DNA of 64,000 nt from Mariniflexile litorale (lineage in GTDB: Bacteria > Bacteroidota > Bacteroidia > Flavobacteriales > Flavobacteriaceae), in the NCBI RefSeq assembly GCF_031128465.2, contig NZ_CP155618.1:4020501-4084500 (forward strand), written 5' to 3'. The translations under genes were made by a program, and so were the position numbers. The notes beneath the pieces are model-generated. The model was not told the DNA's origin. It saw only the letters and a program-made list of their open reading frames with translations, and ran no database searches. Each line of letters starts with the position of its first letter. Position 1 is the stretch's first letter. This document shows positions 34,554-43,931 of this stretch, piece after piece.

Positions 34554-35849
34554 ATGTATACTCTTCTAGCTATTGCATTTATAATTGGCTATATTTTTAT
34601 AGCTTTTGAACATCCTCTTAAAATAGATAAAGCCGCATCTGCCATTCTTACGGGGGTTATGTGTTGGGTTATTTTGGTGATAGGACAAGAAACAATCTTT
34701 CCCACTACGCCAGAAGCTCACTTTATTGATGAATCCATTTTGCACCATGTGGGTGAAATATCGCAAATCCTCTTTTTTCTATTAGGAGCCATGACGATTG
34801 TAGAATTGATTGACACCCATGGGGGTTTTGAAATTATTACTTCTAAAATTAAAACAACAAATAGAGTAAAATTACTGTGGATAATTGGTTGTGTTACCTT
34901 TGTTTTATCATCTGTTTTAGACAATTTAACCACTACCATTGTTATGGCCACATTGCTAAAAAAACTCATGAAGGATAAAGAGGATATTTGGTTTTTTGGA
35001 GGTATTGTCGTTATTGCGGCAAATGCAGGTGGTGCTTGGTCTCCTATTGGAGATGTTACTACCATTATGCTTTGGATTGGCGGACAAGTAACCGCTGTGA
35101 ATATTATTAAAGAAGTATTGCTACCAAGTATTATTTGTTTAGCTGTACCACTTGTAGTTTTGTCTTTTATAAAAAAAGGCGTGATTGCAAAAACCACTCA
35201 TTTAGACCATGACAACCACAAACAAATAGCGAGTTCTTTTGAAGCGTCGCTCATACTTTGGTTAGGCGTTACTGGCTTATTATTTGTACCAGTTTTTAAA
35301 ACACTTACACACCTCCCTCCATTTATGGGCATCCTTTTGAGTTTGGGCGTGTTGTGGATTGTAACCGAAATTATTCATAAAAACAAACCCTTAGAACATC
35401 GTCAAAATTTATCGGTAGCACATGTTATTCGAAAAGTAGATACGCCAAGCGTGCTGTTTTTTTTAGGTATTTTATTGGCTGTGGCCAGTTTGCAAACTGG
35501 CGGGCTTTTAACAGAAGTGGCTAATTTATTAAACGACACTTTTGGTAATATTTATATAATTAATATTATAATAGGTTTAATTTCTTCTATTGTTGATAAT
35601 GTTCCATTGGTAGCTGGTGCTATGGGGATGTATCCGTTGTCATTATACCCACAAAACCATGAGTTCTGGGAACTTTTAGCCTATTGTGCAGGTACTGGAG
35701 GAAGTACCTTAATTATTGGTTCGGCAGCAGGAGTTGCTATTATGGGTATTTTAAAAATAGACTTTTTATGGTATTTGAAAAAGATTAGTTGGTTGGCTAT
35801 TATGGGGTATTTAGCAGGGGTTTTAACCTATTATCTTTTGAATATATAG
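34554..35849 (+). CDS. nhaD: Na+/H+ antiporter NhaD
   Basis: This 431-residue polytopic membrane protein of the arsenite/NhaD (IT) superfamily has about 12 TM helices. Motifs include GAMTIVELIDTHGGFEII, SSVLDNLTTTIVM, ANAGGAWSPIGDVTTIMLWIGGQ and IVDNVPLVAGAMGMY; the repeated DN[LV] and PIGD signatures mark the ion sites. It expels Na+ or Li+ in exchange for protons, typically at alkaline pH. It is monocistronic, and its stop lies only 5 bp before the 204-bp REP array. Confidence 0.95.
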   Translation: MYTLLAIAFIIGYIFIAFEHPLKIDKAASAILTGVMCWVILVIGQETIFPTTPEAHFIDESILHHVGEISQILFFLLGAMTIVELIDTHGGFEIITSKIKTTNRVKLLWIIGCVTFVLSSVLDNLTTTIVMATLLKKLMKDKEDIWFFGGIVVIAANAGGAWSPIGDVTTIMLWIGGQVTAVNIIKEVLLPSIICLAVPLVVLSFIKKGVIAKTTHLDHDNHKQIASSFEASLILWLGVTGLLFVPVFKTLTHLPPFMGILLSLGVLWIVTEIIHKNKPLEHRQNLSVAHVIRKVDTPSVLFFLGILLAVASLQTGGLLTEVANLLNDTFGNIYIINIIIGLISSIVDNVPLVAGAMGMYPLSLYPQNHEFWELLAYCAGTGGSTLIIGSAAGVAIMGILKIDFLWYLKKISWLAIMGYLAGVLTYYLLNI

Positions 35850-35854
35850 TTTTC

Positions 35855-36695
35855 GTCATTGCGAGGTGCGAAGCAATCTCTTGAATCAAAACTAAAAGTT
35901 TATGCACTACTCACAATAAACAGATTGCTTCGTCGTGCCTCCTCGCAATGACCGAAAATATTATGTTCTAGTTATGAAAAAACAGGAACTCCTGGCTCTG
36001 ACGAAATACATTTTCTAACCCTCATTGCAAGATGCGAAATAATCTCATAATGCAATACGTCATTGGGAGGCGCGAAGCAATCTCATGAATCAAAACAAAA
36101 AGTTTATACACAACTCACAATAAACAGATTGCTTCGTCGTGCCTCCTCGCAATGACCGAAAATATTATGCTCTAGTTATAAAAAAATAGAAACTCCTGGC
36201 CCTGACGAAATACACTTTCTAACCCTCATTGCAAGATGCGAAATAATCTCATAATGCAATACGTCATTGGGAGGCGCGAAGCAATCTCTTGAATCAAAAC
36301 TAAAAGTTTATACACAACTCATAATAAACAGATTGCTTCGTCGTGCCTCCTCGCAATGACCGAAAATATTATGTTCTAGTTATAAAAAAATAGAAACTCC
36401 TGGCCCTGACGAAATACACTTCCTAACCCTCATTGCAAGATGCGAAATAATCTCATAATGCAATACGTCATTGCGAGGCACGAAGCAATTTCATGAATCA
36501 AAACAAAAAGTTTGTACACTACTCACAATAAACAGATTGCTTCGTCGTGCCTGCAATACGTCATTGCGAGGCACGAAGCAATCTCATGAATCAAAACTAA
36601 AAGTTTATACACAACTCACAATAAACAGATTGCTTCGTCGTGCCTCCTCGCAATGACCGAAAATATTATATTTTAGTATAAAAACAGGAATTTAT
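35855..36695. repeat. Tandem array of 204-bp REP-hairpin units
   Basis: The element recurs at strict 204-bp spacing (AAGCAA at 35871, 36075, 36279 and 36483) and a fifth time 93 bp later (36576) after an internal deletion. Each 98-bp core is a long hairpin: GTCATTGCGAGG...GAAGCAATCT paired with AGATTGCTTCGTCG...CCTCGCAATGAC. The 106-bp spacer contains a diverged half copy (CATTGCAAGATGCGAAATAA). No transposase gene is inside. The small open frame at 36471-36656 is a by-product of the repeat. Confidence 0.93.
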
Positions 36696-36706
36696 CCCCA
36701 TAACGA

Positions 36707-37864
36707 TTACTTCATATACTTTCCCTTCTTACTTCCCTCATACATCACATATTTAACCAAACGTGCTTCCAATTTGGCGTTAAATAAATGTATTTTACGA
36801 GACGGTCGTAGTCCCACATGCTTTAACGCATCTAAGTTTGAGGTAATAAACCAAGCATCGGTACCCGGGTAACTTTGTTTTAGGGTATCTCCTATATTTT
36901 TGTAAAACTCTTCCATATCAATATTTAAACGCTCGCCGTATGGCGGGTTAAATACCATGTGTAATTTTTCGTCGCCACCTTTTTGGGTTTTAAAAAAGTC
37001 TTCATGTTTTACTTCTATAAAATCGTCTAATTGGGCATTTTTAACATTCTCAATGGCTTTAGTTACGGCACTGGGTGCTTTATCGTAGCCTATAATTTTA
37101 TGATGGAAATCGCGGGTTTTACCAAGTAAGGAGGCTTCAATTTTTTCAAAAAGGTCTACATCCCAATCATTCCAACGCTCGAAGGCAAATTCTTTACGCA
37201 TGAGGTTTGGAGGTATATTGCAAGCTATCATAGCCGCTTCAATAAGCATAGTACCACTACCACACATAGGGTCCATGAAATCGGTTTGTCCGTCCCAACC
37301 CGATAACAGAATCAACCCTGCTGCCAAAACTTCGTTTATAGGCGCTATATTGGTTGCTAATTTATAACCACGTTTATGTAAAGAATCTCCCGAAGAATCT
37401 AATGAAATGGTACACTGGTGCCTGTCTACATGTACATTAACTTTTAAGTCAGGAAACTTTAAATCGACATTGGGGCGTTCGCCAGTAGTATCACGAAACT
37501 TATCTACTATGGCATCTTTAGTTTTTTGTGCAATGTATAACGAATTCGTAAACAACTCAGAGTGTATGGTTGCATCTACAGCAATGGTTCCTGAAGGTTT
37601 TACATACTGCTCCCAAGGCATTTGGTAGAGTTTGTTATATAAATCTTGTTCGTTATTTACGGTAAATGAATTAATGGGTTTTAATATTTTTATAGCGGTA
37701 CGTAACGCCAAATTGGCTTTATACATAAAGCCTTTATCACCCGAAAAAGACACACTTCTCACTCCTGTTTTAACGTCTTTTGCTCCTAGTTGTGTGAGTT
37801 CGTTTGCTAGTAATTCTTCAAAACCAAATAAGGTTTTGGCTAACATATTAAAATTTTCTTCCAT
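36707..37864 (-). CDS. THUMP-domain RNA methyltransferase (RlmL/Trm14-like)
   Basis: This 385-residue class I methyltransferase has a ferredoxin-like/THUMP N-terminus (about residues 1-155, with TLFGFEELLANELTQLGA) and a Rossmann C-terminal part. The latter holds FMDPMCGSGTMLIEAAMIA for SAM binding, IIGYDKAPSAV and the N2-guanine catalytic NPPYGERL. It corresponds to the N-terminal RlmL half of E. coli RlmKL, which makes m2G2445 in 23S rRNA, without the RlmK half. The neighbours are unrelated: a REP array beyond its stop and a long REP element upstream. Confidence 0.9.
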   Translation of the reverse strand: MEENFNMLAKTLFGFEELLANELTQLGAKDVKTGVRSVSFSGDKGFMYKANLALRTAIKILKPINSFTVNNEQDLYNKLYQMPWEQYVKPSGTIAVDATIHSELFTNSLYIAQKTKDAIVDKFRDTTGERPNVDLKFPDLKVNVHVDRHQCTISLDSSGDSLHKRGYKLATNIAPINEVLAAGLILLSGWDGQTDFMDPMCGSGTMLIEAAMIACNIPPNLMRKEFAFERWNDWDVDLFEKIEASLLGKTRDFHHKIIGYDKAPSAVTKAIENVKNAQLDDFIEVKHEDFFKTQKGGDEKLHMVFNPPYGERLNIDMEEFYKNIGDTLKQSYPGTDAWFITSNLDALKHVGLRPSRKIHLFNAKLEARLVKYVMYEGSKKGKYMK

Positions 37865-42151: not shown

Positions 42152-43234
42152 ATGAAGAGCATTTTAAACAAAAAGTCTATGGACTTTTTAGAATCATATT
42201 TAAACAATGCAGCGCCTACAGGATATGAATGGACTGGGCAAAAACTGTGGATGGATTACTTAAAACCTTATGTTGATGAGTTTATTACAGATACCTATGG
42301 TACAGCTGTAGGCATTATAAACCCGAAAGCAAAATATAAAGTTGTTATTGAAGGCCATGCAGATGAAATTTCTTGGTATGTGAATTATATTTCGGATAAC
42401 GGATTGATTTATGTTATTAGAAATGGTGGAAGCGATCACCAAATAGCGCCGAGTAAGGTTGTAAATATTCACACAAAAAATGGCATTGTAAAAGGTGTTT
42501 TTGGTTGGCCAGCCATCCACACAAGAGACAAATCGAATGAAGAAGCTCCTAAACCTGATAATATTTTTATCGATTGCGGTTGTAAAACCAAAGAAGATGT
42601 TGAAACATTAGGTGTACATGTTGGTTGCGTTATCACCTACCCAGATGAATTCCATATTTTAAACGGTGATAAATTTGTATGTCGTGCATTAGATAACCGC
42701 ATGGGTGGTTTTATGATTGCCGAAGTGGCTCGTTTATTAAAAGAAAATAAAAAAACATTGCCTTTCGGACTTTACATTGTTAATGCTGTACAAGAAGAAA
42801 TTGGTTTACGTGGTGCCGAAATGATTACGCAAACCATTAAACCCAATGTGGCTATTGTTACCGATGTTACTCACGATACCACTACACCCATGATTGAAAA
42901 GAAATCACAAGGCGATTTAGAAATGGGTAAAGGCCCAGTAATTGCTTATGCACCCGCGGTACAACAAAAGCTTCGTGATTTAATTACAGATACGGCCGAA
43001 GCTAAAAAAATACCATTTCAACGCAACGCTTTGTCGCGTGCAACAGGTACTGATACCGATGCTTTTGCTTATAGTAATGGCGGTGTTGCTTCTGCTTTAA
43101 TTTCATTACCACTTCGCTACATGCACACCACTGTAGAAATGGTACATAGAGAAGATGTAGAAAACGTTATAAAACTTATTTACGAAAGTTTACTTAATAT
43201 AGAAGAGGGAGAAACCTTTAGTTATTTTAAATAA
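42152..43234 (+). CDS. M42-family metallopeptidase (glutamyl aminopeptidase/endoglucanase-like)
   Basis: This 360-residue dinuclear zinc aminopeptidase has the metal ligands in order: H in VIEGHADEI, D in CRALDNRMGG, the EE pair in NAVQEEIGLRG, D in AIVTDVTHD and H in LRYMHTTVE. A PDZ-like insertion lies between residues 75 and 170. M42 enzymes remove N-terminal residues from short peptides in the cytosol as large tetrahedral assemblies. No signal peptide. It is followed by a REP element and a Nudix gene. Confidence 0.95.
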   Translation: MKSILNKKSMDFLESYLNNAAPTGYEWTGQKLWMDYLKPYVDEFITDTYGTAVGIINPKAKYKVVIEGHADEISWYVNYISDNGLIYVIRNGGSDHQIAPSKVVNIHTKNGIVKGVFGWPAIHTRDKSNEEAPKPDNIFIDCGCKTKEDVETLGVHVGCVITYPDEFHILNGDKFVCRALDNRMGGFMIAEVARLLKENKKTLPFGLYIVNAVQEEIGLRGAEMITQTIKPNVAIVTDVTHDTTTPMIEKKSQGDLEMGKGPVIAYAPAVQQKLRDLITDTAEAKKIPFQRNALSRATGTDTDAFAYSNGGVASALISLPLRYMHTTVEMVHREDVENVIKLIYESLLNIEEGETFSYFK

Positions 43235-43246
43235 TTTTTAATTTAA

Positions 43247-43366
43247 ACGTCATTGCGAAGAGGTACGACGAAGCAATCTGTTGGTTCTTTGTTCCATACT
43301 AAACTTTAGAATAAGTTTCATAAGATTGCTTCGCTCTTTTTCTAGTAAAAAAGCTCGTAATGACGT
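43247..43366. repeat. Solo REP hairpin related to the 204-bp array
   Basis: Ends ACGTCATTGCGAAGAGG and CTCGTAATGACGT with internal ACGAAGCAATCT and AGATTGCTTCG make a 120-bp hairpin. The same GTCATTGCGAG / GAAGCAATCT blocks build the array at 35855-36695. It lies between M42 peptidase and Nudix genes and may end the former transcript. Confidence 0.85.
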
Positions 43367-43379
43367 TTCATAATTCTTT

Positions 43380-43931
43380 ATGGACGAATACATAGACATT
43401 GTAGATAAGCAAGGAAACCCCACAGGAAAATCGGAACTAAAATCAATAGTTCACCAAAAAGGATATTTCCACCATACGTCACATGTTTGGTTTTACACTA
43501 AAAATGGAGAGGTGTTATTATCACAACGTTCAGCAAAAAAAACTATTTGTCCGCTTATGTGGGATGTGTCAGTTGCAGGACATATAGATGCAGGTGAAAC
43601 TCCTAAACAAGCTGCCATTAGAGAAGCTGAGGAAGAAATAGGCCTCATAATTTCAGAAAATAAATTACAATCTATTGGTGTTTTCGAATGTTTTCAAACT
43701 TATGATAATGGTATGGTAGATAATGAATTTCACAACACCTTTATTGCCGAAATTTCAGTCCCGCTTTCAAAATTAACACTCCAAGAAGAAGAGGTTGAAG
43801 CTTTAAAATTTGTTACGCTAGATGCCTTTAAAAAACTAATAAAAAATATTGGGGAAGATAATCACTTTGTGCCTTCTAATAAAGCTTATTACGAGTTGGT
43901 GTGGCAAAATATTATAAAAAAAACAGCTTAA
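43380..43931 (+). CDS. Nudix hydrolase, IPP-isomerase-like
   Basis: This 183-residue Nudix protein has the Nudix box at residues 67-89 (GHIDAGETPKQAAIREAEEE and then IGL), matching GX5EX7REUXEEXGU. The N-terminal HHTSHVWFYTKNGEVLLSQR resembles IPP isomerase and YfcD relatives, but the isomerase catalytic Cys motif is not clear, so a pyrophosphohydrolase of unknown substrate is safer. Start ATG 43380 follows the REP hairpin by 13 bp. It is 9 bp ahead of the PrsW gene, so they are probably co-transcribed. Confidence 0.9.
   Translation: MDEYIDIVDKQGNPTGKSELKSIVHQKGYFHHTSHVWFYTKNGEVLLSQRSAKKTICPLMWDVSVAGHIDAGETPKQAAIREAEEEIGLIISENKLQSIGVFECFQTYDNGMVDNEFHNTFIAEISVPLSKLTLQEEEVEALKFVTLDAFKKLIKNIGEDNHFVPSNKAYYELVWQNIIKKTA

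Follow-up and report, generated by a model that had tools for sequence, protein, structure and literature searches.

Tandem clusters of REPINs, pairs of inverted REP sequences, have been described in Pseudomonas fluorescens SBW25, where near-identical doublets follow each other together with their flanking DNA (Bertels and Rainey 2011, PMC3116915). In that genome 16 such clusters are reported, the largest with four REPINs and a length of more than 700 bp. The array described here is built in the same way, but the SBW25 clusters consist of GTAG-type REPs for which RAYTs are known, whereas the present REPs are CGTC-tagged, have no linked RAYT and occur in the Flavobacteriaceae. The BIMEs of E. 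coli (y-z1 and y-z2 mosaics, BIME-2) share with our array the inverted REPs of unlike length, the frequent tandem arrangement and a conserved stem mismatch, but according to the account consulted (PMC8266576) they have a GTAG tag and REPs of 29–37 nt, and TnpA-REP has been shown to cut them.

With respect to the tag, the array resembles the CGTC-tagged REP superfamily (Di Nocera et al. 2013, PMC3733652), which was reported in Bacteroidetes, with G. forsetii among the CGTC-positive species. The passages of that survey dealing with this class describe an unpaired CGTC tag at the foot of a 20–40-nt hairpin that starts with AT and has a 3-nt tail, a predominance of head-head dimers, a location behind genes and the lack of a transposase. 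The REPs of the present array likewise have the CGTC tag, an AT-starting hairpin, head-head dimers, a position behind a gene and no linked transposase. The superfamily is described with perfect stems of 8–9 bp and loops of 4–5 nt, whereas in the REPs studied here a 5-bp basal stem is followed by a GA/GAA step that does not pair and then by a variable top; the first two stem pairs are A-T and T-A as in the superfamily, and only the five basal pairs are plain. The same survey describes clusters of CGTC REPs as rare, but several arrays per genome are found in the genus Mariniflexile. The dRS3 repeats of Neisseria are also CGTC REPs in large intergenic clusters; as described there, these are mosaics with other repeat families, in contrast to the regular head-to-tail units of REPIN and local flank found here.

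The array is thus a further tandem REPIN cluster, in the CGTC class and in the Flavobacteriaceae. The original prediction held that REP doublets of this kind are usually solo, which is at odds with the published tandem REPIN clusters (PMC3116915) and with the frequently tandem BIMEs (PMC8266576), as far as these accounts go. As tandem clusters of REPINs had been described before, there is nothing unusual in the array as such, and its value is that of a case from the less-studied CGTC class. No description matching the array was found among the papers listed for flavobacterial REPs, Mariniflexile repeats, and CGTC REPs with RAYTs since 2014 (PMC12306157 and PMC6006769 included), and a literature search for the REP letters matched only unrelated papers.

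Layout of the array

The window, a stretch of 64,000 nucleotides from the Mariniflexile litorale genome (contig NZ_CP155618.1, positions 4,020,501 to 4,084,500), contains the array in the gap between two convergent genes. On the left lies an antiporter gene (34554–35849, + strand, 431 aa) for which the name nhaD is taken over from the original prediction, the domain identified here being Pfam CitMHS (PF03600, E 1e-32). On the right lies an rlmL-like methyltransferase gene (36707–37864, − strand, 385 aa) with UPF0020, THUMP and RlmL_1st domains. As predicted, the array begins 5 bp past the nhaD stop (35849), at position 35855; it ends about 50 bp short of the 3' end of rlmL.

The array consists of head-to-tail copies of a REP doublet with flanking sequence. 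The doublets, all on the + strand, start at 35855, 36059, 36263, 36467 and 36560, i.e. at spacings of 204, 204, 204 and 93 bp, and Tandem Repeats Finder reports a period of 204 with 3.4 copies (35854–36552) and a period of 93 with 2 copies (36459–36645), which bears out the predicted tandem array. REPIN 1 (35855–35952) is composed of a 24-nt REP (35855–35878), a 44-bp spacer and an inverted 30-nt REP (35923–35952), and is followed by the unit spacer (35953–36058). This spacer holds a decayed 24-nt REP (36021–36044), with equivalents at 36225–36248 in unit 2 and 36429–36452 in unit 3, in agreement with the diverged half copy noted earlier. REPINs 2 (36059–36156) and 3 (36263–36360) have the same C-to-G change in the stem of the first REP. 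Unit 4 is truncated to 93 bp (36466–36558) and retains its first REP (36467–36490) and the inner spacer, while REPIN 5 (36560–36657) again has a complete 98-bp core. The right flank (36658–36692) aligns with the start of the unit spacer, clearly over about 35 bp and weakly further on.

A loss of 111 bp had been predicted correctly, but for the fifth unit and as a deletion ending inside a hairpin core. It is the fourth unit that is short, and the deletion starts within the core: it runs from a point in the inverted REP through the whole remainder of the unit, spacer included, and the two sides of the junction overlap by 1 bp. Pairwise comparison of units 1 to 3 gives 12, 11 and 5 differences in 204 positions (the last number being units 2 versus 3), about equally spread over core and spacer; at 94–98% identity, the description of the units as close to identical is too strong.

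Elsewhere in the window, a further REP pair of this family, diverged and with a changed second arm, is located at 43249–43364 (+ strand), between the + strand ORFs 42152–43234 and 43380–43931.

Structure of the REPs and composition of the doublets

Each REP consists of GTC (with a C before it in the array) and a 5-bp stem whose halves enclose a variable top. The CGTC tag is unpaired and precedes the hairpin of every intact REP in the array. Stem and doublet counts were taken, without requiring stem pairing for REP detection, from 258 REPs in 40 stretches that were picked from match lists for their REPs rather than at random, and in which REPs of one array are not independent of one another. 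The main stem variants among these 258 REPs are ATTGC/GCAAT (132), ATGGC/GCCAT (38) and ATTAC/GTAAT (37), compared to 17 half-changed forms (7+3+3+4). The 40 stretches contain 82 head-head dimers of at most 100 bp, and of 820 basal stem pairs in each case, 795 are kept within single REPs and 678 between the partners of the dimer.

The 98-bp cores are imperfect palindromes that fold in silico into one long hairpin (−35.9 kcal/mol for unit 1, −35.4 for unit 5), so the predicted hairpin is able to form. The stem covariation, however, is stronger inside REPs than across the doublet, making the small hairpin within each REP the better supported structure. The folding itself counts against this emphasis, as lone REPs fold weakly as RNA: the 24-mer reaches only −3.4 kcal/mol, and the best fold of the 30-mer is not the REP stem.

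All 55 head-head doublets of at most 100 bp in 17 Mariniflexile stretches combine a 24-nt REP with one of 30 or 32 nt. In chosen stretches from other genera this short-plus-long pairing is found in 20 of 27 doublets, the others being 24+24 (six) and 26+30 (one). GTAG dimers of E. coli also combine unlike REPs, as stated in the 2013 survey (PMC3733652). The inner gap, counted with a REP detector demanding some stem pairing, is mostly 41–45 bp (53 of 84 neighbouring inverted pairs less than 150 bp apart), with a second class at 25–26 bp. This clean short-plus-long rule is, together with the missing mobilizing enzyme discussed below, the interesting side of the family.

Distribution in the genome and in relatives

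When up to three mismatches are allowed, the short-REP pattern occurs at 22 places in the 4.52-Mb genome, compared to 0 for the reversed pattern, so these matches are not due to chance. Copies of the whole doublet, with the inner spacer, are scattered over the genome as single units, e.g. with 85% identity over 118 bp at 2768857, with further full-core matches at 3472538, 2404982 and other positions, while no match outside the array enters the 106-bp outer spacer by more than 17 bp. The dispersed unit is the REP doublet with its inner spacer, and the outer spacer of the array is local DNA.

The short REP with at most one mismatch was found in 47 of 397 sampled genomes of the family, representing 39 of 237 genera. 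The two genomes referred to here as M. gromovii and M. fucanivorans match loci of those species without a difference over 4,296 bp, and the genus name Mariniflexile is used in that sense. Within the genus, the number of matches with up to two mismatches ranges from 0 in one relative (G001) to 49 in a draft genome (G004), with 30 in M. fucanivorans. Such a patchy distribution is as expected for a mobile or decaying family. Arrays elsewhere have periods of their own: 154 and 115 bp in M. fucanivorans, 187, 203 and 119 bp in G004, and 152 and 115 bp in genomes G135 and G265, respectively. Upstream of one RAYT gene, belonging to the clade of the G004 RAYT discussed below, the palindromes of that clade likewise form, as judged by eye, a regular head-to-tail row, so that tandem growth together with flanking DNA may be general for flavobacterial REPs. 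In G004, one 119-bp REPIN unit occurs in arrays on four contigs (C26, C34, C14 and C30), several of which reach contig ends; these could be either one long broken array or one dispersed array.

The comparison of the locus with other species is based on one genome per species. The nhaD-rlmL order is the same in G001, where the two genes are about 5 kb apart and a single changed, decayed REP directly follows nhaD; homology with the window ends at the final base of this REP. In M. fucanivorans and M. gromovii, the 3' side of nhaD has another neighbour gene and no tandem repeat. Since G001 has a single decayed REP and no array at this site, the REP was present before the array. The array is younger than the split from G001 and is not shared by G001, M. 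fucanivorans or M. gromovii. The earlier claim of a recent amplification goes further than this, and units that are 2.5–6% apart do not give a finer date.

The REPIN at 2768857–2768974 and its counterpart at the same site in M. fucanivorans (contig C7, 204663–204763) have opposite orientations. The alignment score is 132 inverted versus 85 direct, and for the inner spacer 43 versus 20, the best of 1000 shuffles reaching 27; either an in-place inversion or an independent insertion would account for this. M. gromovii, G001 and G004 are too different around this locus to provide a clean empty site. A Flavo-1 RNA (RF01705, 49.5 bits, above threshold) adjoins this REPIN, at 700–772 of the extracted stretch in which the REPIN occupies 574–672, and positions 700–790 or thereabouts gave dozens of matches when five genomes of the genus were searched.

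Origin and mobilization of the array

We propose, with a probability of roughly 80%, that a dispersed REPIN was amplified in place with its local flank to give the array. A CGTC-tagged REPIN (24-nt REP, 44-bp spacer and inverted 30-nt REP, 98 bp in total) would have settled between nhaD and rlmL, possibly having been dispersed by a single-strand (HUH-type) process. This REPIN and 106 bp of neighbouring DNA, including an older, decayed REP, would then have been duplicated head-to-tail by recombination between copies, presumably through unequal crossing-over or replication slippage. The loss of 111 bp from one unit would have come later. The locus-specific periods, the local origin of the spacer and the resemblance of the right flank to the spacer start all point to such an in-place duplication, and the fixed spacing and local spacer agree with the local amplification that had been considered likely from the sequence. 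Divergence of edge versus interior units was tried as an indicator of unequal crossing-over, but divergence is not regularly highest in the edge units of the five arrays compared, and the two routes are therefore not separated.

That the unit count is an artefact of assembly, through a collapsed or expanded repeat, is highly improbable. Arrays of the family in the draft genome G004 lie at contig ends, which shows that their assembly is difficult, but the genome of the window is a single 4.52-Mb contig, and random collapse or duplication would not yield the private unit differences and the unique internal deletion. The array could also have been retained for a function, as a bidirectional RNA barrier or 3'-end stabilizer, or as an array binding gyrase or another protein, like BIME-2. 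Its position between convergent genes and the fold of the 98-nt RNA (about −36 kcal/mol) fit this idea, as do the surroundings of 20 hand-picked REP loci in the genome, of which five lie in convergent, ten in codirectional and one in divergent gaps, and four inside crudely called ORFs. Against it, neither an Rfam family above the gathering score in the array nor an intrinsic-terminator-like site, a GC-rich stem with a T run behind it, was found in 35700–36800 (0 versus 0.6 expected), the latter giving no support to the earlier proviso that the array might stop transcription. Moreover, no such array follows nhaD in M. fucanivorans and M. gromovii, G001 has only the decayed REP, and the same 3' location bias is reported for REPs in general (PMC3733652). 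Retention for function is quite unlikely on balance; RNA ends may be affected, but any effect on nhaD or rlmL RNA is probably a by-product.

The original prediction attributed the spread of such doublets to RAYT (TnpA-REP) transposases. On this reading, a RAYT encoded in the same or a related genome would move the REPs and build the arrays, following the examples of E. coli and Pseudomonas. The layout of the element is that of a RAYT substrate, with an unpaired 5' tag, a small hairpin with interrupted stem and an inverted partner, and RAYT-like Y1 genes are present in the genome. None of the seven Y1-transposase matches in this genome, however, is flanked by the CGTC motif within 1.5 kb, and no Y1 gene is bracketed by the same REPs (a REPtron). 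Overall, a CGTC REP was found within about 1.5 kb at only one of 46 examined Y1/RAYT loci, that of a 199-aa Y1 protein in G004 encoded amid CGTC REPs. With its REPtron-like setting, this protein was considered as the missing CGTC transposase, but rejected as the likely reading. A search of the 397 family genomes provided, among the matches listed, 30 loci for examination, one being the G004 gene itself; none of the 13 other examined loci of its clade has a CGTC REP, and all 14 have a different, GCGAAGT-type palindrome (2–16 motif matches per locus, compared to 0–2 in 16 loci of other clades, for a motif chosen after looking at six flanks). M. fucanivorans, furthermore, has 30 REP matches and an array, yet no PF01797 match at E 0.001. 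The missing linked RAYT agrees with the 2013 survey (PMC3733652), which states that no transposase is dedicated to CGTC REPs. A RAYT could act in trans from afar, but we consider mobilization by a RAYT improbable. A further, likewise unlikely reading takes CGTC REPINs as minimal transposon ends, in which a short and a long single-strand hairpin always go together and which would be dispersed and amplified in these flavobacteria by an enzyme of a type other than the linked RAYTs. The pair would correspond to the unlike left and right ends of IS200/IS605 elements, and its traces would be the strict combination of a short with a long REP (55 of 55 Mariniflexile doublets) and the inversion of one REPIN in place between two species.

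According to the 2013 survey (PMC3733652), no transposase is known for the CGTC class. The genus is a usable system for studying what moves these REPs: it includes REP-rich and REP-free species, occupied and decayed orthologous sites, the flipped REPIN, and M. fucanivorans as an array-bearing species with no detected Y1 gene.

The RAYT gene of G004 (contig C12, 160335–160931, − strand) has palindromes of its own clade next to the CGTC REPs surrounding it, and a REP-bearing flank is duplicated on either side of the gene, about 1.2 kb apart.
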